Below are positions 11,593 to 27,419 of a DNA stretch of 33,761 nt, piece after piece. The translations under genes were made by a program, and so were the position numbers. The notes below the pieces were generated by a model, which saw only the letters and a list, made by a program, of their open reading frames with translations, ran no database searches and was not told the origin of the DNA. Within the stretch, counting starts at the first letter, position 1, and each line of letters opens with the position of its first letter. This stretch comes from Oscillospiraceae bacterium (GTDB lineage: Bacteria; Bacillota; Clostridia; UMGS1883): contig SVJI01000003.1 of the NCBI GenBank assembly GCA_015069065.1, positions 1 to 33,761 of the forward strand, read 5' to 3'.

Positions 11593-12642
11593 TTAGCGGT
11601 AAAATCTATCTTTTATATTCTCGAAAAAGCTGTCCATACGGCTGAAATCCATAGCTTGCACATAGTATGCTTCCAGCTCGTCATGCAGCCTTTTTGCCTT
11701 TTCTACATTGTTACAGGCGCGTGCAAGAAGCTTTTCTGCGCTGGCCAGACGTTCCTCCATAACTCCCTCGAGCGGCATTGAGTGATAAAACTTCAGGCAG
11801 TCTGTACGCGCCCCTGATGAAAATGGGAGAAAATTGTTCTCCGTTACCACGGCAAGACTCTTTTCAGGGAAAATAAGGTGGTCGGTTTTCTGGGGAATGA
11901 TTGAGCATGGGCAGTGGATAAAATCACTTCCGCTCAGCTTCGCTGCGTCATAAATACGGCTTAATATATAGCTTGATGCTCCGCCCCAATTGTCCTCAAG
12001 GATATAAATTTTATCGGCAAAGGCATTGGGAGTTTTGGAAAATAGCTTGATTTCCCCCACACTGACCGCACTGAGTAGCCGATGCTTTTCAGCTGAAAAC
12101 TTTCCGTCATCAAGCTTTTTAACTATTTTCTTAATAAATTCAGCGGCAGCATCTTTGTTGATATAGTTTTCTGAGTAACGGATATTTTCCTGAAGAAGTG
12201 ACGCTGCTGCCTTTATATATGCGCCTGCACCCATGTGAAGGTCAGAGATACTCTGACTCAGCTTTTTTATCTTATCTTTATTTTTATACAGCTTATCAGT
12301 ATCCCACAGGTCACCTGTGTAAATAATATGGTGGAGCGCCCCCGGGACAGAGGGGTCCTGTATATGCGGAGCGGTTCCGTCCATCATGGCAAAATTTGCA
12401 GTAAGGTCAATCAAAGCATCCAGAGAACTGGGGTCTGATGCGCAGGGGATAATTTCAAGCATATGTCCCCTCTCCTGTGCGAAAGCGGCAACACGCTTCA
12501 TCAGAGAGGATTTACCGCTGCCCGGTCCTCCTTTTAAAATAAGCAGCTGCATGGAGTCTGATTGCTCCTGCAGCTGCTTAAAGTAAGAAACAAAACCCAT
12601 ATTTGAATTAGCACCGAGAAAAAAGTTTGATTTGTAATTCAT
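11593..12642 (-). CDS. PRK06851-like P-loop ATPase
   Basis: LLILKGGPGSGKSSLMKRVA Walker A near N-terminus and second P-loop-like half; AGGAGG RBS before ATG 12642. Confidence 0.75.
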   Translation of the reverse strand: MNYKSNFFLGANSNMGFVSYFKQLQEQSDSMQLLILKGGPGSGKSSLMKRVAAFAQERGHMLEIIPCASDPSSLDALIDLTANFAMMDGTAPHIQDPSVPGALHHIIYTGDLWDTDKLYKNKDKIKKLSQSISDLHMGAGAYIKAAASLLQENIRYSENYINKDAAAEFIKKIVKKLDDGKFSAEKHRLLSAVSVGEIKLFSKTPNAFADKIYILEDNWGGASSYILSRIYDAAKLSGSDFIHCPCSIIPQKTDHLIFPEKSLAVVTENNFLPFSSGARTDCLKFYHSMPLEGVMEERLASAEKLLARACNNVEKAKRLHDELEAYYVQAMDFSRMDSFFENIKDRFYR

Positions 12643-12693
12643 TATATTCAGCCTCCTTGTCACATTTATTATATGCAAAAGGCTGCTTTTAAG

Positions 12694-13107
12694 TTATTTT
12701 TCTATTGTAACTGTAGAAGTTTCCTTGTCCCAGTTAACTGTTGCACCGAGTCCCTTTTCAAGAACAACGTTATTTACCAGTGTTCTGTCTGTGGAAAGAA
12801 TGGGTGCATTGTCCAGAAGAACCTCTTCATCATTTAAAAACATCTTATTGTTTCCAATCTGGATTGTTGTCAGAACATCGCCGCAGCTTGTAAATATTGT
12901 CTGGGTTTCACCCTGCCAGTTTACAATCGCTCCAAGCTTTTCTGCAACAAAACGAAGCGGAATCATAACGGTTTCTCCGTCAAGAACAGGCTGGCGGTCA
13001 AATTCTACAGCCTCGCCGTTTACCAGGACCTTAATATCTGCTGCAAGTGATGCAGTTGCGGTGAAAATCATCACCATAGCAAGTAATAATGTTACTACCT
13101 TTTTCAT
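12694..13107 (-). CDS. Stalk-domain (copper amine oxidase N-terminal-like) secreted protein
   Basis: Signal peptide; IKVLVNGEAVEFDRQPVLDGETVMIPLRFVAEKLGAIVNWQGE...TVNWDKETSTVTIEK. Confidence 0.9.
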   Translation of the reverse strand: MKKVVTLLLAMVMIFTATASLAADIKVLVNGEAVEFDRQPVLDGETVMIPLRFVAEKLGAIVNWQGETQTIFTSCGDVLTTIQIGNNKMFLNDEEVLLDNAPILSTDRTLVNNVVLEKGLGATVNWDKETSTVTIEK

Positions 13108-15380: not shown

Positions 15381-17033
15381 ATAAGTATAAAGAAAAAAGC
15401 ATTGGAATTACGGGCGAAACAACAACGGCAAGCCGAGCTTGATGAAATTGCCGAGAGGCTGACACCCGAAGAGATTGAAAGACTAATTTCGGTCTATGAG
15501 AAAAAGACGGGAAGAAAGGCACTAAATCCAGCACCACAGCCTGACAAATTTGTGCAGTTCTTGAAACGGCAGGATTTTCACATGCTCTGCCCGTTCTGTA
15601 AAGGCAGAAATTATTATTCGCACAGCAATCCTCTTAGTCGGGATATTAGATTTTATTGTAATGATTGTAAAAAGGCATTCTCACCTTTTATAGGGACATT
15701 GGTTCAAGGGTCAGGGCTCTCTTGGGATGCATGGGTTGAATTGGTGCGTTGTACTTTGGAAAATAAGTCACTTGTAGCAACCAAACATCTACTTGAAGCT
15801 GATTATGGTGTATCTATGAACCAACAAACAATACTATCATACCGCCACAAAATACAAAAGGCAATCACCCTGACATTCCCGATGCCAAAGCTTTCGGGAG
15901 TAGTACAGGTTGATGAAACTTACTTTCGGGAGGGGCAAAAAGGCTCAAGAAGCCTTGTAAATGTTGCACCCACCGCCATTGACAAGAGAGAGGCACGCCT
16001 GCATACAAAATCACATCCAGGGAAAATGGGTATCAATGGTTCAGAATATTCCTGCATTGTTACTGGATATGAGAGTTCATCGGGAGGTGGAGGTCATATA
16101 GCAGCCGTGATGACAGGCCTTGGCAAAAGTTCCTCACAGCCTTTTGAAGATTATTTTGCAGACTACCTTGGTGATGTTACCTTTTTATGTAGTGACGGGT
16201 TTGAGGCATATAGCAGATACGCCGACAAACACGCTATTCCGCATTATGTGCAGATGTCTGAGGCAAGGTCAATAATTAAGAAAGAAATGCAGGATTATAA
16301 AGAACGCTATAAAACCGCAACAACAGCCGAAGCAGTAAGGGAAAGGCTTTATGGAACAAGACAGCTTGACTATATAGACAATTATAGCAATCTGAATTAT
16401 AAGCAGTTTGTAGAATTAAAAGTGGCAAAAGGTTTAACCTTAGATAATATTGACAACTACCACGCCGAGTTGAAACTTCGTATTAATAAAGAATTAAGGG
16501 GTGTTTCAACTGTTTATCTGCCTTTATATATAGGTTTTAGGGTATTTATACATAATTGGCGGGTAGACCACAATGACACCCCACCATCTTCAAGGGCTGA
16601 TGCTGAACAAATTTTTACTGCTTTACTTATGGCAGGTGATAATTATGTAAGCCGCAAAGATTTTGAGGGACTGTCAATTCTTGATTTTAATAGACCTGCA
16701 ACTAAATATATAAATCACCTGAAAAAATCACTTGATGAAATCCGCAGACAATCGGGAATAAAAGGTTTTACCTTTGATGATAATGACAGATTACTGACCT
16801 TTAATAAAAGAAAATATTTTGAAGATACACCAATGGCAAGATTAAAAGAAATCAGTAAGCAGTATCATATAAAAGGATATACTAAAATGACGGCGTATCA
16901 ACTGGCACGGGAAATTTGCAAGTTGCCCGAAGTTAATGACATTTTCCTGCGGCTTGTGGCAGCGGACGCCGTCCACTCACACTATATAGATGATTTAGCG
17001 GAATTGCTAAAAAAAGAAGAACAGGGAATTTAA
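15381..17033 (+). CDS. IS1595/ISXO2-type transposase with zinc ribbon and extended C-terminus
   Basis: CPFCKGRNYYSHS...RFYCNDCKKAF zinc ribbon; QVDETYFREGQKGSR, LCSDGFEAYSRYA, NYHAELKLRINKELRGVSTVYLPLYIGFRVF. Start is either TTG 15402 (ORF track) or non-canonical ATA 15381. Confidence 0.88.
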   Translation: MSIKKKALELRAKQQRQAELDEIAERLTPEEIERLISVYEKKTGRKALNPAPQPDKFVQFLKRQDFHMLCPFCKGRNYYSHSNPLSRDIRFYCNDCKKAFSPFIGTLVQGSGLSWDAWVELVRCTLENKSLVATKHLLEADYGVSMNQQTILSYRHKIQKAITLTFPMPKLSGVVQVDETYFREGQKGSRSLVNVAPTAIDKREARLHTKSHPGKMGINGSEYSCIVTGYESSSGGGGHIAAVMTGLGKSSSQPFEDYFADYLGDVTFLCSDGFEAYSRYADKHAIPHYVQMSEARSIIKKEMQDYKERYKTATTAEAVRERLYGTRQLDYIDNYSNLNYKQFVELKVAKGLTLDNIDNYHAELKLRINKELRGVSTVYLPLYIGFRVFIHNWRVDHNDTPPSSRADAEQIFTALLMAGDNYVSRKDFEGLSILDFNRPATKYINHLKKSLDEIRRQSGIKGFTFDDNDRLLTFNKRKYFEDTPMARLKEISKQYHIKGYTKMTAYQLAREICKLPEVNDIFLRLVAADAVHSHYIDDLAELLKKEEQGI

Positions 17034-17283: not shown

Positions 17284-17319
17284 AAGGTTATCTCTAAACA
17301 GAGGTAGCCTTTATTTTTT
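17284..17319 (+). terminator. Intrinsic terminator downstream of transposase
   Basis: AAGGTTATCTCT (17284-17295)/AGAGGTAGCCTT (17300-17311), 12 bp with 2 G-U, followed by TATTTTTTG. Confidence 0.65.
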
Positions 17320-17348: not shown

Positions 17349-17377
17349 TTGTAATTACGGCAGCATTGTGGTATAAT
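17349..17377 (+). promoter_or_regulatory. Extended -10 promoter for the SLH protein leader
   Basis: TTGTAA 17349-17354, 17-nt spacer, TGGTATAAT (TG at 17369-17370, TATAAT 17372-17377); predicted +1 near G17384. Confidence 0.75.
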
Positions 17378-17383
17378 ATGTAA

Positions 17384-17589
17384 GCTACAACTTTTAATTT
17401 TTAAAACACAATTTAATATTTTACTTGCGTGAGGAGTACACTACTGTAAAAAGTGTACACTCTTGTTTCTCATACCCTTATGCAAGTAAGTTGTGTTATG
17501 AATTAAAAGTGTGTAGCAACCTTTTGAAACAGAGTCACTGCATTTTTTGGTGTGTGGCTCTTCTTTCGGGGGGAGCTACACATTTTTTT
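17384..17589 (+). ncRNA. Candidate structured leader RNA/attenuator (riboswitch-like)
   Basis: P1 17384-17399/17501-17517 (16 bp, one G bulge), P2 17405-17411/17491-17497, P3 17421-17428/17482-17489, P4 17436-17442/17452-17458, then terminator 17552-17589; competing 13-bp pairing 17505-17517/17575-17587. Confidence 0.65.
17552..17589 (+). terminator. Intrinsic terminator inside the 5' leader of the SLH protein
   Basis: GTGTGGCTC (17552-17560)/GAGCTACAC (17573-17581), 9 bp with one G-U, followed by T7 (17583-17589). Confidence 0.75.
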
Positions 17590-17641
17590 AATTCTTGAAA
17601 AATTAAAGTGTAAATATTTTATATAAAGGAGTTCAAGAAAA

Positions 17642-20600
17642 ATGAAACGGAAACAAAGTAAAGTATTGTCAATTCTGCTTTCGATTGCTATGCTGTGCAG
17701 CATGGTTGTGCCTACTGCTTTTGCAGCTGATAGCAGATATATTGACACAACCGACCATTGGGCAGAAACAGCCATTGAGCGGTGGAGTGATTACGGGATT
17801 ATTGAGGGATACGGCGATGCCTTTAACCCCGACTACTCAATCACACGCGGGCAAATGGCAACTATTCTGTCAAAGACATTAGGGCTAACAGAAGAAGCAG
17901 AAAATCCATTTAGTGATATCTCTGCCGATGAATGGTATGCTCCCTATGTTCTGCGTTGCTATAAAGCAGGCATAATGCTTGGAGATAACGGCAAGGCTAA
18001 TCCCGATGCGGAAATTACCAGACAAGAGGCAATGACTATGTTTTGCCGTGCTTTTGGTATTAAAGCAGATGAATCAGCAGACTTGACCTCTTTCAAGGAC
18101 AGCAGAGAAATTGCTGATTGGGCTTTACCTTATGTTTCCGCTTTAATAGACGGCGGTATTGTAAGCGGTGTTTCAAGTGATATGATTGCACCTGCTGAAA
18201 GTATGAGCAGAGCGGCACTTGTAACCATACTTGACCGTGCTGTGGTACAGTATGTTAATACAAGCGGGGAATATGACCTGACAGACAGCAATGGCATTAT
18301 TCTTGTAACTGCTGGCGATACCATCTTAAAGGGTGAGACAAAGGCTGACATTCTTATCACACAGGCGGCTGACGGAAAAGCTGTAACCTTTAAGGATGCA
18401 GCTGTTACGGGCGAGGTTACAGTTCAGGCTGACACAAAAATTATAAGTAACAATTCCAAGCTTCCCCAAATTGATGCAACTGTTGAGGAGGTTAAAAAGG
18501 AAACCCCTAAAAAACCTAGCGGTGGAAGCTCTGGTGGTAGTTCCAGACCCACTATCTCTAACCTGACAATCAGCGAGGAAAAAGCCTTAACAAGCGGTAC
18601 ATACAACAATGTAACTATAACCGATGCAGTAGCAGATGGTGAAGTTACTTTGAGCAATGTAACAATAAATGGTGATTTAACAATCAAAGGCGGTGGCTCA
18701 AGTTCTATCAAACTTGATAATTGTACCATTCAGGGTAAGGTTATTATGGCAAAAGAAACGGGCGAGACTCCCCGTCTTGAATTGACAAATACACCTGTTG
18801 CAACTGTTGAGGTACAGAAACCCGCTATCATTGAGGCAGTAGATAATGCCTCTGCTGTTACAAAGATTGAGGCAACCGCGAACATTGAAATCAAGGGTGA
18901 AAACACAAAGATTGAAACACTTGCAGTTCCTGAAACTGCGGAAAGTGCCGTAGCTGTAATTGTAACGGCTGGTAATGTTGCAACTGTTGAGGCAAAGGCT
19001 GAAACAAGTGTAACAGGTGCAAGCAATTCAGTTAATACAATCGTAGCAATAGCAGCGGTAACTGCTGATTCTGAGACAGTTCAAAAGGTGGAAATCCCCG
19101 AAACTGCAACAGAGAGCGTAAGCGTAACTGTGACAGGCGATGCATCTGTTGATGTTGAAATCAACTCAACAAGTGGTGCGGCTGTTATGGGTACAAATGT
19201 AACTGTTTCAACTACTCTTGAAACCGCTCCCGATAATATAACAGTAGGCGGTGAGGCTGTAAGTCACATCCATAAGTGGGGTGAGCCTGTTACCACACCT
19301 GCAACCTGTGAGCAGGATGGCGAAAATGTATATACCTGTATTGCTGACGGATGCGATGATACTGCTAAAACAAAGACAGAAGTAATCCATTCATTAGGTC
19401 ATAAATATGGTGATTGGAAGAAATCGGATGATGATTTGCATGTCCGTGAGTGTGCTAATGATAAAGACCACTATGAAAAACAAGAGCATACTTGGGACGA
19501 GGGTAAAATAACAACAGAAGCAAACTGCGGCCAAGATGGTGTAAAGACCTATACCTGCTCTGTATGTAAAGGTACAAAGACAGAAACAATAGGTAAACCT
19601 GAACATAACTGGGGTGACTGGGTAAAGGTAGATGCTACAAGCCACAAGAGGGTATGTAAGAACAATGCAACTCATATCGAAACAGCGGACCATACACCGA
19701 TTATTGATAGTGCAGTAGATGCTACCTGTACCGAAACAGGAAAAACAGAAGGCTCACATTGCGATGTTTGTAAGAGCGTGATTGTTGAGCAAACCACAAC
19801 ACCCGCATTAAAACACGATTTCACAGGGGAATATGAGAAGGATGCTGATGGTCATTGGCATATCTGCGAGCGTGATAACTGCGAAGAAACCGACACAAAG
19901 GCAGGTCATACCTACAACACAACAAATTGTGCAGAGGTTGCAACCTGTACTGAATGTAAATATGAAAAGCCAGCGGGCGAGCATACTTGGAGTGATTGGG
20001 AAAAGGTAGATGATACCAACCACAAACACACCTGCTCCTGTACCGCAACAGAAACAGAAGAGCATAAATGGGATGACGGCGAAATCACAACCGAGCCGAC
20101 AGAAACAACAGAGGGTGTAAAAACCTATACTTGCTCTGAATGTAAAGGAACAAAGACCGAGGCTGTGCCTGTGATTGTTTCAGCAAATTATGCATTTGTT
20201 GAAAACCACGAAGGGAATCCATTAAGAATTTCTTGGAAAGAATCTGCTCTTGCTGCTGAAAATGGATACAAGCTGAAATTTGATGGATATAATACGACTA
20301 TGGGAACAGCACGCACTGTAGTTAATTTAGCACCTATTTTAGTGCTTGATAGTTTGCAAAACGGAAAGCTTTCTATGGCGGTTTATACAGGTCCTGATTG
20401 GGTAAATCTTACACCGATATATTCTTCAAAGGAAATAGGAAATATTACTATTAACAACAAAACACCTGAATTCGAAATTGAGAAGGATGAAAGCGGAAAT
20501 TACAACTTCGTTTCTGAATTGACAGGCGGAATGTGGGTTTACGAGCTTTATAATAATGACACCATCTATTATGCAAATAATGATGTTAATGGTGCTATCG

Positions 20601-23600
20601 ATTCGTATGCTAATTTTGCTGACGGACATACTGTAAAAGCACGTTATGTTACTTGGACACTTAACGATGATAAAACTTTTGCTGAATTTACGGTGTCTAA
20701 CATTGCAACCTATACCTACAAGGAATCTGTTGCAAGCGATGTAACAATCACATTAGTTCAGGAAGGCGACAGTATTAAGGCAACTTGGACGGGAACAGAC
20801 TTACCCAATTACTATTTCGAAATTGAAGATAGCAACGGAAAATATGTAACAAGCGGCTGGACAAATGGAGATGAATGTTGCATAGCAGACCTTTCGCTTT
20901 ATCTTCCCAGAGCGGATGAGGACAGTAATTACACTCTTGTAGTATATTCTGCGAACGAGAATTGGATTGTAGTTGAAGAAATAGCAAGGTTGTACAACTG
21001 CTTTGAAATTACTGTTTTAGGAAATGTCGTTGAATATAATATGGTATTTAATGATGGCGAAGACGGCGTGCATAGTGTTACGCTGGCAGGTGATACATTA
21101 CCCAGCGGTATTCGATTGCTTGATGCTTGGTATGATAGTTTAGGAAAGCTAAGAAGTTCTGGGTCTTCAAGCATAAGTAGAAATAAAACGGAACATCAGG
21201 CAATTCAAAATGGCTATGATTATGATTTAAGAGTTTTAACTGCCTATGCGCTTGATGGGCAGACTATAAAGGCAACAATGACTCCTCCTTCAAAGAAAAC
21301 ATATGTAAATGAAGATGAACCGAAAATTAAATGGAATGACGGCGGAACAATTGCATGGCAGGCAGTAGCAAATGCCGATGATTACAAGTTGAATATCTAT
21401 TCAGGAGATACTGTTGACAGCACCAAGCTTGTCGCAACCAAAAACATAGGTACTTATAGCACAGTATATCAAATTAGCAGTAATTTTGATATAGCAGAAC
21501 TGGCTGACAATAAAGATGCTACCTTTACTGTTGAACTCTTGGCACTTGATACAAATGATAATGTAATCGAAACTGTCGGGGTATTGGCAGAGGGTATAAA
21601 TTTAACCTTTACCGAATCCGCTCCCGAATTCAGCTTTGAAGTAACAGGCGAAAAGACCTACACCATAACCTTTGCCGAGGGAACACCCAACGGAATGCGA
21701 TACAGCCAATGGTATGATGCTGAAGGAAATAAGTCGGGTGGAATGTCAGGTTTTGGCATGACACAATTAACAAATGCTGGAGAAAGAGCCTATGCCTTTG
21801 CTGATGGAGATACAATCAAAGTTTATATTGCAACAGTAGATACTATCACAGATACTGTATGGACTATTACCAGAACACCTGATGCGGTACAGATATATAC
21901 CACAGAAGAAACAGATGCTTCTCTTATTTCATTCCGCAAATGGAATACAGACATAATGTTTGACGGATACGATGATGTTGCAGATACAAAGAGCCTTGAA
22001 GTAGACGGAATTAAGGTGTTGTCAAAGAAGACAGAAACAATGAGTGAGTTTCTCTTTGATTATGACCAGACAAAAGGAAATATTACAGATGCAGATTTCG
22101 TTGTAGAACTTGATGGCGTTGAAAAGGAAAGAATTAAGGGAAATGTTGATGTAACACTTTCAAATACAGATGTTGCATTTACAATAAATACAGACGGAAC
22201 ATTGTCTTTTGATGCAACCACACACGGCAGCTTTGCTTATGAGACAACAACAAAGGACGGAATGACTCATCAAGTAGGTAGAATAGCCTTTAATAATGGT
22301 ACATTGGTGGATGGTTGGACGCTTCCGACTCTTGCTGATGGTGAAACAATTGACATTATGCACATTGATTGTACCTATGACGAAACCACTAAATCAATTT
22401 CTGCAACTATATCAAAGCATACAACAAAAACCCATACCGCAACAAGTGATAAAAACATTTGGTTTAGTGAAGATGGCGACGGAATATATGTAGAGTGGAA
22501 AGAAACAGAGCTTGCAGATGGTGAAAAGTATTTTATCACAATGCGGAACCCCGAAAGCCTGTTTACCCGAACAAAAGCAAAGTTGGATTTAGGTACTTTT
22601 TTTGATGAAAGTGATATTGTAAACGGCAAACTTGCAATAAAGGTTGATACAGGAACAAGCTGGAGCGATGTTGAAAATCTTTATGATGAAAAGGAATTTG
22701 CCAATGTTACTTTAACCAATACTACCCCCGACTTCACTATTGAAAAAGATAGTACAGGAAAATATAAGTTTGTATCCGACCTATCAGGTGGAGCTTGGGT
22801 TTATACCACATATGACGAAAATAGCAACCTTATGTATGTAGGAAATGTGGTTAATGGAGCAATAGATACTTATGCTAATTTTGCTGACGGACATACTGTA
22901 AAAGCACGCTATATAACTTGGACACTTAACGATGATAAAACTTTTGCTGAATTTACGGTGTCTAACCTTGCAACATACACCTACAATGAGCCTGTCGCAA
23001 GCGATACAAATGCCCATCTTATGATGGACGGTGATTATCTTTATCTTGTGTTTGAGGATGAAGAGGGACTCGGAGCAAATGAGTGGTATTATGTTCTTCA
23101 AAACGGGGAGAATATCACAAGCGAAGACCTTAAGGAAATAGAACTCACATGGCTTTTGCCGGGAATTAGCGAAAATACGGTCTTAAATTACGAAATTCAA
23201 AAAGGAACATGGCAGACAAAGGAAACTTTTGTAAAGCTTGACAATGCAATCAATATTACTGTAACTGATTCTGCACCTAATCTGTCACTTGTTCCACAAG
23301 CAGATGGTACATACAAAATAACAGGCGGCGGGGACACAGGATATTTTTACCGTGTGACAACACCCGAGGGCGACCGCCTTGCAACAGATTATACACTTGA
23401 CGATACATTCCTTTGTTCAATATACGAAGGATGCACAGTAGAACTCCAGACCGGAACAATAACAGTTGCCGAGGATGGACTTTCTGCAAATATCACAATG
23501 AGTCCGGTTGTTAAAATAGAAAATCCCACACTCCCGACAGGACTTAACACTGTGGTTGAAGTTGATACGGCAGACAAGCTTCTTGATGCGGTAAACAGAG

Positions 23601-24553
23601 GTGCGATTGCAACGCTTACCGCAGATATCACAAGCGAAAATGTGTTTAAGTTCAAAACCGGCGCACCTGCAACAATTGACCTTAACGGGCATACACTTAC
23701 TGCACCTACTGTGAGAGCATATTACGGTAAAGAGCTTACAATTGATGCAACCAAGGCCGGCAGTGCTATTAACGCAACTCTTACGACCAATCTCAAGGGA
23801 AGCTTTATTTTAACCGGCGGAACATATGAGCGTATCAGACTCAGTGGAGGTAAAAAGTTTATAGCAAACGGAATTACGGTACAAAGCTCCGGGGCATATG
23901 AACCTGTAGAAATAGGCGCTATGGATTATGTTGAAATAAACAACTCAAGTTGCATAAGCACATCAACCGCCGAACTAACAAGTGGTCTATACATATGGGA
24001 ATGTAACGAAGTAAAGCTTACTAATGTTACTGCAAGTGCAATAAGTAATTGGTTTGGTGCAGACATTGCATGGTGCGAAAAGGTGAATATCACCGGCGGA
24101 AGTTTCAGCGCAGAGAACAACGATGGACTTCGTTTTGTGGAATGCGAAAGTGCAACTATTGATGGTGCAAGCGTAAGCGGTAGCACAACTGCGCTTCTTG
24201 TTCAGGATGGAGCGGTTGCAGAGATTAATGGTGGAACATTTACATCAGCAGGGAACTCAGCAATTCAGCTTTCAAGAGAAGATTCTGCGCTTACGATAAA
24301 CAACGGAACATTCATTGCAAATGGTGATGGCTCTATAAAGAATATTGTAATAATGGAAGATACAAATACTTTCATTATTAATGGTGGAACATTTGAAGGA
24401 TTTTCCGGTGTTACATACTCTGATACTGCTACTGTAAGTATAAACGGTGGCACATTCAGCTTTGACCCCACAGAATATGTGGATACTGCTACTCATACTG
24501 TAACTGATAACGGAGACGGAACATTCGTAGTAACGGCAATCAAAACTGAGTAA
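17642..24553 (+). CDS. Giant SLH-domain cell-surface protein (2303 aa) with Cys-pair repeats and C-terminal beta-helix
   Basis: Signal peptide; three SLH domains (ITRGQMATILSKTLGL, ITRQEAMTMFCRAFGI, MSRAALVTILDRAV); GG/S linker; CxxC-containing repeats; duplicated modules; C-terminal INGGTF-type beta-helix. Confidence 0.95.
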   Translation: MKRKQSKVLSILLSIAMLCSMVVPTAFAADSRYIDTTDHWAETAIERWSDYGIIEGYGDAFNPDYSITRGQMATILSKTLGLTEEAENPFSDISADEWYAPYVLRCYKAGIMLGDNGKANPDAEITRQEAMTMFCRAFGIKADESADLTSFKDSREIADWALPYVSALIDGGIVSGVSSDMIAPAESMSRAALVTILDRAVVQYVNTSGEYDLTDSNGIILVTAGDTILKGETKADILITQAADGKAVTFKDAAVTGEVTVQADTKIISNNSKLPQIDATVEEVKKETPKKPSGGSSGGSSRPTISNLTISEEKALTSGTYNNVTITDAVADGEVTLSNVTINGDLTIKGGGSSSIKLDNCTIQGKVIMAKETGETPRLELTNTPVATVEVQKPAIIEAVDNASAVTKIEATANIEIKGENTKIETLAVPETAESAVAVIVTAGNVATVEAKAETSVTGASNSVNTIVAIAAVTADSETVQKVEIPETATESVSVTVTGDASVDVEINSTSGAAVMGTNVTVSTTLETAPDNITVGGEAVSHIHKWGEPVTTPATCEQDGENVYTCIADGCDDTAKTKTEVIHSLGHKYGDWKKSDDDLHVRECANDKDHYEKQEHTWDEGKITTEANCGQDGVKTYTCSVCKGTKTETIGKPEHNWGDWVKVDATSHKRVCKNNATHIETADHTPIIDSAVDATCTETGKTEGSHCDVCKSVIVEQTTTPALKHDFTGEYEKDADGHWHICERDNCEETDTKAGHTYNTTNCAEVATCTECKYEKPAGEHTWSDWEKVDDTNHKHTCSCTATETEEHKWDDGEITTEPTETTEGVKTYTCSECKGTKTEAVPVIVSANYAFVENHEGNPLRISWKESALAAENGYKLKFDGYNTTMGTARTVVNLAPILVLDSLQNGKLSMAVYTGPDWVNLTPIYSSKEIGNITINNKTPEFEIEKDESGNYNFVSELTGGMWVYELYNNDTIYYANNDVNGAIDSYANFADGHTVKARYVTWTLNDDKTFAEFTVSNIATYTYKESVASDVTITLVQEGDSIKATWTGTDLPNYYFEIEDSNGKYVTSGWTNGDECCIADLSLYLPRADEDSNYTLVVYSANENWIVVEEIARLYNCFEITVLGNVVEYNMVFNDGEDGVHSVTLAGDTLPSGIRLLDAWYDSLGKLRSSGSSSISRNKTEHQAIQNGYDYDLRVLTAYALDGQTIKATMTPPSKKTYVNEDEPKIKWNDGGTIAWQAVANADDYKLNIYSGDTVDSTKLVATKNIGTYSTVYQISSNFDIAELADNKDATFTVELLALDTNDNVIETVGVLAEGINLTFTESAPEFSFEVTGEKTYTITFAEGTPNGMRYSQWYDAEGNKSGGMSGFGMTQLTNAGERAYAFADGDTIKVYIATVDTITDTVWTITRTPDAVQIYTTEETDASLISFRKWNTDIMFDGYDDVADTKSLEVDGIKVLSKKTETMSEFLFDYDQTKGNITDADFVVELDGVEKERIKGNVDVTLSNTDVAFTINTDGTLSFDATTHGSFAYETTTKDGMTHQVGRIAFNNGTLVDGWTLPTLADGETIDIMHIDCTYDETTKSISATISKHTTKTHTATSDKNIWFSEDGDGIYVEWKETELADGEKYFITMRNPESLFTRTKAKLDLGTFFDESDIVNGKLAIKVDTGTSWSDVENLYDEKEFANVTLTNTTPDFTIEKDSTGKYKFVSDLSGGAWVYTTYDENSNLMYVGNVVNGAIDTYANFADGHTVKARYITWTLNDDKTFAEFTVSNLATYTYNEPVASDTNAHLMMDGDYLYLVFEDEEGLGANEWYYVLQNGENITSEDLKEIELTWLLPGISENTVLNYEIQKGTWQTKETFVKLDNAINITVTDSAPNLSLVPQADGTYKITGGGDTGYFYRVTTPEGDRLATDYTLDDTFLCSIYEGCTVELQTGTITVAEDGLSANITMSPVVKIENPTLPTGLNTVVEVDTADKLLDAVNRGAIATLTADITSENVFKFKTGAPATIDLNGHTLTAPTVRAYYGKELTIDATKAGSAINATLTTNLKGSFILTGGTYERIRLSGGKKFIANGITVQSSGAYEPVEIGAMDYVEINNSSCISTSTAELTSGLYIWECNEVKLTNVTASAISNWFGADIAWCEKVNITGGSFSAENNDGLRFVECESATIDGASVSGSTTALLVQDGAVAEINGGTFTSAGNSAIQLSREDSALTINNGTFIANGDGSIKNIVIMEDTNTFIINGGTFEGFSGVTYSDTATVSINGGTFSFDPTEYVDTATHTVTDNGDGTFVVTAIKTE
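20606..20721 (+). repeat. Copy 1 of 116-nt near-identical intragenic repeat
   Basis: 6 mismatches in 116 nt relative to 22871-22986 by hand alignment. Confidence 0.9.
22871..22986 (+). repeat. Copy 2 of 116-nt near-identical intragenic repeat
   Basis: Encodes YANFADGHTVKARYITWTLNDDKTFAEFTVSNLATYTY, matching YANFADGHTVKARYVTWTLNDDKTFAEFTVSNIATYTY of copy 1. Confidence 0.9.
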
Positions 24554-26005: not shown

Positions 26006-26034
26006 TTGACTTATATATTTGAAAATGTTAAAAT
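26006..26034 (+). promoter_or_regulatory. Promoter of thyA-dfrA operon
   Basis: TTGACT 26006-26011, 17-nt spacer, TAAAAT 26029-26034. Confidence 0.65.
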
Positions 26035-26066
26035 CAAGAGAGGTAATGAAAGCGAGGATTAACATT

Positions 26067-26897
26067 ATGAGCTATGCTGATATTGTATTCAAACAAAATT
26101 GTGAGGATATACTGCGCAACGGTTATTCTGACGAGGCACTTGACGTGCGTCCTGTCTGGGAGGACGGTGCCAAGGCACATACAGTAAAAAGATTTTGTAT
26201 AGTAAACCGTTACAATCTTCAGGAGGAATTTCCTGTTATCACTCTGCGTAAAACGAACCTCACCGCCGCAGTTGATGAGCTTTTGTGGATATGGCAGAAG
26301 AAAAGTAATAATATAAAGGACCTTTCCAGTCATATCTGGGATTCATGGGCAGATGAAAACGGCTCCATAGGAAAGGCATACGGTTATCAGCTGGGAGTGA
26401 AGCATAAGTATAAAGAGGGCGAGTTTGATCAGGTTGACAGGGTGCTTTACGACCTTAAGCATAATCCCCAGAGCAGGCGCATTATGACAAATATATATAA
26501 CCACAGTGACCTCAGTGAAATGGGACTTTACCCATGCGCTTATTCTGTAACGTTCAATGTAAGCGGAGATACCTTAAACGCAATTCTTAACCAAAGGTCA
26601 CAGGATATGCTGACGGCAAACAACTGGAATGTGTGTCAGTATGCCGTTCTTGTCCATATGATGGCACAGGTGAGCGGACTTAAGGCGGGCGAGCTTGTAC
26701 ATGTAATTGCCGACGCTCATATATATGACAGGCATATCCCGATTGTAGAGGAGATTTTGTCAAAAAATCCTTATGATGCGCCCGAGTTTAAGATGGACAA
26801 ATCTATTGATGATTTTTACAAGTTTACAACCGAGAGCTTCTCTTTTGAAAATTATAATTTCCATACTTTGGGTAAGAAGATTCCTGTCGCCATTTAA
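26067..26897 (+). CDS. thyA: Thymidylate synthase
   Basis: LGKAYG-type motif (IGKAYGYQLG), LYPCAYSVTFNV catalytic Cys, LNQRSQDMLTANNWNVCQYAVLVHMMAQ, ADAHIYDRHIP; start set at ATG 26067. Confidence 0.95.
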   Translation: MSYADIVFKQNCEDILRNGYSDEALDVRPVWEDGAKAHTVKRFCIVNRYNLQEEFPVITLRKTNLTAAVDELLWIWQKKSNNIKDLSSHIWDSWADENGSIGKAYGYQLGVKHKYKEGEFDQVDRVLYDLKHNPQSRRIMTNIYNHSDLSEMGLYPCAYSVTFNVSGDTLNAILNQRSQDMLTANNWNVCQYAVLVHMMAQVSGLKAGELVHVIADAHIYDRHIPIVEEILSKNPYDAPEFKMDKSIDDFYKFTTESFSFENYNFHTLGKKIPVAI

Positions 26898-26915
26898 TTT
26901 AAAGGACTGATTTTT

Positions 26916-27419
26916 ATGAAAATGATAGTTTGTGTTGCTGAAAATTTCGGCATAGGTTTAAATAACGATTTGCTGTTTTCACTACCGCCTGATATGAAAC
27001 TTTTTCGTGAGACAACCATGGGAAAGGTTATTATTATGGGCAGGGGAACACTGGATTCATTTCCCGGGGGAAAGGCACTGAAAAACAGAGTTAATATAGT
27101 CCTCACACGGGATAAAGACTTTGAGAGGGAGAATGTGACGGTTCTTCATTCCAAACAGGAAGTTCTTGATTATGCAGGGCAGTTTAAAAGTGACGATGTT
27201 TATGTAATAGGCGGCGGACAGATTTATGAAATGTTTAAGGATTGCTGCGACTGTGCCATTGTAACCAAAGTCAGGAAAACAGTTCCCTGTGACACTTACT
27301 TTTTTAATATTGACGAAGAGCCTTCGTGGGAGCTTGCAGAGGAAAGTGAGCTTATGGAGTACGAGGGCACTCAGTTTAGTTTCTGCACATATAAAAAGTT
27401 GACAAATTCTCAAAATTAA
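26916..27419 (+). CDS. Dihydrofolate reductase
   Basis: GIGLNNDLLFSLPPDMKLFRETTMGKVIIMGRGTLDSFPGGKALKNRVNIVLTR and VIGGGQIYEMF motifs. Confidence 0.95.
   Translation: MKMIVCVAENFGIGLNNDLLFSLPPDMKLFRETTMGKVIIMGRGTLDSFPGGKALKNRVNIVLTRDKDFERENVTVLHSKQEVLDYAGQFKSDDVYVIGGGQIYEMFKDCCDCAIVTKVRKTVPCDTYFFNIDEEPSWELAEESELMEYEGTQFSFCTYKKLTNSQN

Follow-up and report, generated by a model that had tools for sequence, protein, structure and literature searches.

Architecture of the leader

The window analyzed here—a 33,761-nt stretch of contig SVJI01000003.1 from an Oscillospiraceae bacterium—contains a promoter, a structured leader and an intrinsic terminator arranged in series ahead of a gene encoding a giant SLH protein (Table 1). 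The preceding gene is a 543-aa ORF (15402–17033) without a Pfam match, and a second terminator-like hairpin (17284–17311) is located immediately upstream of the leader promoter. This hairpin probably terminates the preceding gene, in which case it would insulate the leader. Elsewhere in the window, an ORF at 11593–12678 with weak matches to STAND-type NTPases (NPHP3_N and nSTAND3) adjoins a protein with a copper amine oxidase N-terminal domain (12694–13107) and, at 26019–27419, thymidylate synthase is directly followed by dihydrofolate reductase.

Table 1. Features of the source leader and positions of tandem copies in related loci
Feature	Position	Strand	Basis or remark
Promoter: TTGTAA -35, 17-nt spacer, TG-extended TATAAT -10	17349–17377	+	-10 ends 6 nt before P1
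P1 5' strand	17384–17400	+	starts at the putative +1; fold and P1 covariation
P2 5' strand	17405–17412	+	partner 17490–17497; fold
P3 5' strand	17421–17434	+	partner 17476–17489; fold and covariation
P4 5' strand, GTACACT	17436–17442	+	covariation and duplex computation
P4 loop (A-rich) and P4 3' strand	17443–17458	+	17448–17457 can alternatively pair with linker 17539–17548
J, one-sided loop 3' of P4, ACTCTTGTTTCTCATAC	17459–17475	+	swapped-partner tests, duplex computation, fold
P3 3' strand and P2 3' strand	17476–17497	+	fold
P1 3' strand, bulged G17511	17500–17517	+	alternative partner is the terminator 3' arm, weakly maintained in the family
Linker (switching strand)	17518–17548	+	AAC, pseudoknot strand GAAACAGAGT, then TGCATTTTTT (similar to P4 5' strand)
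Intrinsic terminator and T tract	17549–17590	+	arms B (17549–17559) and C (17574–17584); covariation
Ribosome-binding site, AAAGGAG	17625–17631	+	sequence
Controlled gene: 2303-aa secreted protein, three SLH domains	17642–24553	+
Tandem copies before one gene	L031:7349–7821
Tandem copies before one gene	L110:1231–1709
Tandem copies before one gene	L112:1099–1697
Tandem copies before one gene	L154:121–499
Tandem copies before one gene	L161:64–625
Tandem copies before one gene	L184:102–498

The elements that an earlier note had drawn at this locus—an extended -10 promoter of the form TTGTAA-17-TATAAT, a P1 helix with G17511 as its single bulge, the helices P2, P3 and P4, and an intrinsic terminator downstream—were all recovered, with the terminator hairpin spanning 17549–17584 ahead of a run of Ts. 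The leader of this window (hereafter, the source leader; 17384–17592, 209 nt) folded at -75.4 kcal/mol, compared with -41.0 ± 3.6 kcal/mol for dinucleotide shuffles, none of 200 of which was as stable (z = -9.5); these thermodynamic folds leave out of account a pseudoknot of 10 bp with one bulged T, in which J (17459–17469) pairs with the linker (17526–17535). An alternative, antiterminator pairing is also available in the source leader, connecting linker positions 17531–17543 with 17550–17561. Duplex computations assigned -17.8 kcal/mol to the 20 pairs between the P4/J strand and the linker, -14.7 kcal/mol to the linker paired with terminator arm B and -14.2 kcal/mol to the terminator stem itself (B paired with C).

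A family of leaders in Clostridia

A search within the genus returned three true homologous leaders, which have in common the sequence GCTACA...TGTAGCAAC, a conserved P4 hairpin and a CAGAGT...TTTTT block before the terminator. A DNA pattern derived from this block and run over 85,462 genomes identified further true members in metagenome-assembled genomes of Clostridia, the type of assembly from which nearly all members come. Covariance models were built from 16 aligned leaders (R1) and from 42 members (R2). The former matched in 26 of the 28 genomes of the order and the latter in 77 of the 292 Clostridia genomes sampled at class level, whereas the source genome was the only match in a sample of 399 genomes of the phylum (none of the 398 others), in a search whose stricter large-sample filters miss some weak matches. 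No family match was found in 16 unrelated genomes. When 32 carriers were searched more thoroughly, up to 28 copies per genome were detected, with six in the source genome. Switches this common—present in about a quarter of the sampled genomes of a class—seldom remain uncatalogued. Moreover, several loci contain tandem copies before one gene (Table 1), as also seen in L100, and the second copy of such cassettes often has a -10 promoter of its own. Since viral-contig hits of the DNA pattern looked random on inspection and a conserved 20-mer had no match in 2.9 million viral contigs, the family is apparently not phage-borne; similarity searches with the source leader in phage and plasmid collections also returned nothing.

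Conservation and covariation, which the earlier note had proposed to look for in homologous leaders, are both present. Family sequences diverge strongly while their pairs are kept, as illustrated by the P1 variants GCTACA/TGTAGC, ACCACA/TGTGGT, GTCACA/TGTGAC, GCCACG/CGTGGC, GCGACA/TGTCGC and GCAACA/TGTTGC, and the intrinsic terminator is conserved with covariation across members. In an alignment of 109 members, 96.8% of cells were paired, 28 of the 31 consensus pairs had changes on both sides, and the covariation score was 0.592, compared with 0.227 for shuffled alignments and at most 0.138 with slid structures—figures that lean towards the structure, to which this alignment was fitted.

Competing pairings of the linker strand

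After P1, members of the family present the same order of elements: AAC, a strand complementary to J and then TGCGTTTTT or a variant thereof, resembling the P4 5' strand. The swapped-partner tests described below reveal a chain of mutually exclusive pairings, in which P4-5' pairs with P4-3'/J, P4-3'/J with the linker, the linker with B, and B with C. Matched changes accompany this layout, e.g., AAAAAGCGUGC with GCGCGCUUUUU (L087), AAAAAGGCG with CGCUUUUUU (L031, L110 and L112), UGUACG with CGUACA (L083) and CUCUGAUU with AAUCAGAG (L078).

The native strand duplexes of 114 members were compared with duplexes in which partners had been exchanged between members. Mean energies (native vs. swapped, in kcal/mol) were -9.56 vs. 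-6.81 for J:linker, -8.75 vs. -7.23 for the P4 loop plus P4-3' with the linker, -14.15 vs. -10.83 for linker:B, -16.11 vs. -10.95 for B:C and -10.56 vs. -9.39 for P1-3':C. Swaps restricted to within clusters, where relatedness among members cannot be wholly removed, gave z values of about -9 for J:linker, -6 to -7 for P4:linker, -9 to -11 for linker:B and -16 to -17 for B:C, while negative pairs (e.g., P4-5':linker, J:B and linker:C) stayed near zero, from about +1 to -2.4. With reversed partners, J:linker and P4:linker dropped to approximately zero; linker:B and B:C retained z values of -4.0 and -7.8 (native, -14 and -23, respectively), and the z values of these two pairings are therefore partly compositional. 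The antiterminator formed by linker:B, which excludes the terminator, is maintained by covariation. Unconstrained minimum-energy folds of 120 members divided into 59 with the terminator and 61 with the antiterminator, as would be expected of a balanced switch.

These results bear on the strand assigned to switching. The earlier note had proposed a cis-acting transcription attenuator, a reading that the family supports, but had given the main switching role to the 3' strand of P1, a role that falls instead to the linker (17518–17548). The 13-bp duplex between P1-3' and arm C of the terminator, on which the former proposal was built, does exist in the source leader (-16.2 kcal/mol) and can form in several members, yet it is weakly maintained in the family, with within-cluster z values of just -2.8 to -3.7, and is poor by eye where P1 ends in TCTAGC (e.g., L117 and L132). 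Fold snapshots of the growing source transcript indicated that P1 is complete and linker:B formed before the 3' arm exists, and that P1-3':C displaces the outer six pairs of P1 once this arm emerges. Because P1 and linker:B coexist in the predicted source fold until that point, the further proposal that a formed P1 equals the OFF state is not established. Plausibly, P1-3':C acts here as an extra stabilizing step rather than as the core of the family mechanism.

Promoter spacing and proposed mechanism

A promoter scan returned five promoter-like matches where 3.8 were expected by chance in the stretch covered; hence, the match at the source leader is weak on its own. Across the family, however, the end of the -10 hexamer lies exactly 6 nt upstream of P1 in 97 of 119 homologues, and the TGn extension of the -10 element is present in 97 of 115 members. 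Promoter spacing played no part in the covariance models, and its recurrence across homologues turns the promoter assignment into a strong one. At the other end of the element, the start codon follows the terminator at a median distance of 29 nt, with a Shine-Dalgarno sequence in 78 of 117 members (at ≤60 nt), and there is therefore little space for another promoter. The element thus combines a same-strand promoter upstream with a nearby start codon downstream, the arrangement of a cis-acting attenuator.

This geometry also bears on two other explanations of the element. With a promoter and a terminator in one complete cassette, and with some cassettes arranged in tandem (L031, L110, L112 and L154), the element could represent a stand-alone gene for a small RNA of ~205 nt, the adjacency to coding genes being secondary; we regard this as improbable given the short distance to the start codon, a ribosome-binding site right after the terminator and a maintained antiterminator pairing that would be senseless for a plain small RNA. 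Less probable still is a MITE-like, dispersed inverted-repeat mobile element inserted upstream of genes. Its copy number and a long P1 reminiscent of terminal repeats would fit such an origin, but 120 of 130 copies are left after dropping those >90% similar, the helices diverge with compensating changes, and the positions of promoter and start codon are fixed.

With considerable confidence, we read the source region as a transcription attenuator close to its promoter that belongs to a large family in Clostridia, in which the ON/OFF choice would turn on the linker. The computed support for this reading consists of the family itself, its covariation, the promoter spacing and the competing complementarities. 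In the mechanism that we propose, the RNA would begin with the first nucleotide of P1. Its 5' domain (P1–P4) bears the one-sided loop J and the A-rich P4 loop, and the linker that follows has two complementary partners, namely the P4 loop/P4-3'/J strand and terminator arm B. The linker and P4-5' would be rivals for P4-3'/J. Because the pairs are mutually exclusive, a captured linker would correspond to the terminator and a free linker to the antiterminator: capture by the 5' domain, through the J:linker pseudoknot and strand exchange into P4, would allow the terminator to form and yield an RNA of ~205 nt (OFF), while a free linker would pair with the 5' arm, releasing the 3' arm and letting the polymerase read through (ON). 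We infer this direction of the switch, with the captured linker as the OFF state, from the exclusivity of the pairs. In the source leader, the 3' arm, once released, may additionally replace the outer pairs of P1 by pairing with P1-3'. The balance would be tipped by a signal, for which a ligand of the 5' domain is the likeliest candidate. Such strand-swapping probably decides between an early stop and continued transcription of surface and regulatory genes, and the strand-exchange layout yields clear mutational predictions.

Relation to known leader RNAs

No gathering-score match to Rfam 15 (4227 families) was found over the element in the source stretch or in 43 related loci, in keeping with the earlier view that the leader lies outside recognized riboswitch classes. 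The only gathering-level match, RT-14 RNA (RF02921; L133:1073–1249), lies ~800 bases downstream of a member. In general layout, the element resembles transcription-terminating riboswitches and leader attenuators, which likewise combine a promoter-proximal fold, mutually exclusive antiterminator and terminator, and a close start codon; it differs from general attenuators in having a conserved sequence and architecture of its own and a linker that copies the P4 5' strand, joining an aptamer-like domain, a pseudoknot and the antiterminator.

Three known systems are closer in individual traits. T-box leaders occur in many copies per genome in Firmicutes, sometimes in tandem, and use an antiterminator/terminator switch, as the element does; however, the genes downstream of the element are not amino-acid genes, and no T-box match was found in the source stretch or the 43 related loci. 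Class I and II c-di-GMP riboswitches are clostridial, present in several copies per genome and located, as the element is, upstream of surface and adhesion genes. In contrast to these, neither class was matched by Rfam in the same set of loci, and c-di-GMP is unlikely to be the general ligand: GGDEF proteins were found in 27 of the 32 carriers but not in the other five—among them the 28-copy genome, ~94% complete—with the caveat that the assemblies are incomplete. Finally, leaders of processive antitermination (LoaP/dfn) also precede long genes or operons in Firmicutes, whereas the RNA described here has its own terminator and antiterminator. LoaP is an unlikely regulator, as none of the 32 carriers had a LoaP above the cut-off and the weaker matches did not exceed about one per genome, the number expected for general NusG.

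While the element is a transcription attenuator in kind, the family and its strand-exchange layout appear to be new. Our search of the open-access literature found no description of the family, although the unnamed candidates that Fremin and Bhatt (2021; PMC8040213) predicted by the thousand among the RNAs of human microbiomes may overlap with it.

Downstream genes and candidate signals

Most of the genes downstream of the family code for SLOG proteins, AbrB-like regulators, or proteins that are secreted or located at the surface. Pfam analysis of 96 downstream proteins identified BspA-type LRR (14), Cu_amine_oxidN1 (8), SLH (7), MazE/AbrB-like (6) and YpsA SLOG (6) domains. Simple motif matching identified a signal-peptide-like N-terminus in 55 of 117 downstream proteins and classed 16 entries as SLOG-like. 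The element is not specific to SLH genes, although the member in L047 precedes another giant SLH protein. The family delimits a ready-made regulon. Among its products are adhesin-like proteins with BspA repeats, SLH proteins and proteins of the copper-amine-oxidase-N type, through which it could influence the way Clostridia of the gut and rumen interact with their environment.

What sets the switch may be considered at two levels. As a more specific form of the attenuator explanation, P1–P4 may act as a strict riboswitch, binding a putative small molecule that stabilizes either the J:linker pseudoknot or the local P4; we see the arguments for and against as evenly balanced. The domain is elaborate and conserved, and its one-sided loop and pseudoknot lead into the terminator; this, together with the many and tandem copies per genome, would suit second-messenger or metabolite riboswitches, but the downstream genes (surface, SLOG and AbrB-like) are diverse instead of belonging to one pathway. 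We tentatively entertain, at slightly below even chances, the broader idea of a new riboswitch class responding to a global signal, with a surface/SLOG/AbrB-like regulon across Clostridia and a linker that mimics P4-5' to relay the signal by strand exchanges to the terminator. Alternatively, a protein (an antiterminator or RNA-binding repressor) or a trans-acting RNA might set the switch via J or the linker, both of which are conserved, potentially single-stranded targets, and a single regulator would suit the regulon-like spread over surface genes. This is rather unlikely: no LoaP-type factor exceeded the family cut-off among the carriers, and the covarying complementarity of J and linker is not obviously demanded by a protein site. 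The signal of the family is open to direct search by probing.

Two minor observations concern individual members. Small Cys-rich proteins (TPGN..GKxCLGNGEH...ECCCDECxY) recur downstream of the element in different genomes (L120, L136, L141 and L174). In addition, P4 is longer or shifted in a sub-type represented by L031:3184–3371 (+), L031:6999–7193 (-), L088 and L090, where a J like CAAATTCC pairs with a linker like GGAGTTTG; the copy in L090 lies upstream of a SLOG gene and that at L031:6999–7193 upstream of an AbrB-like gene.
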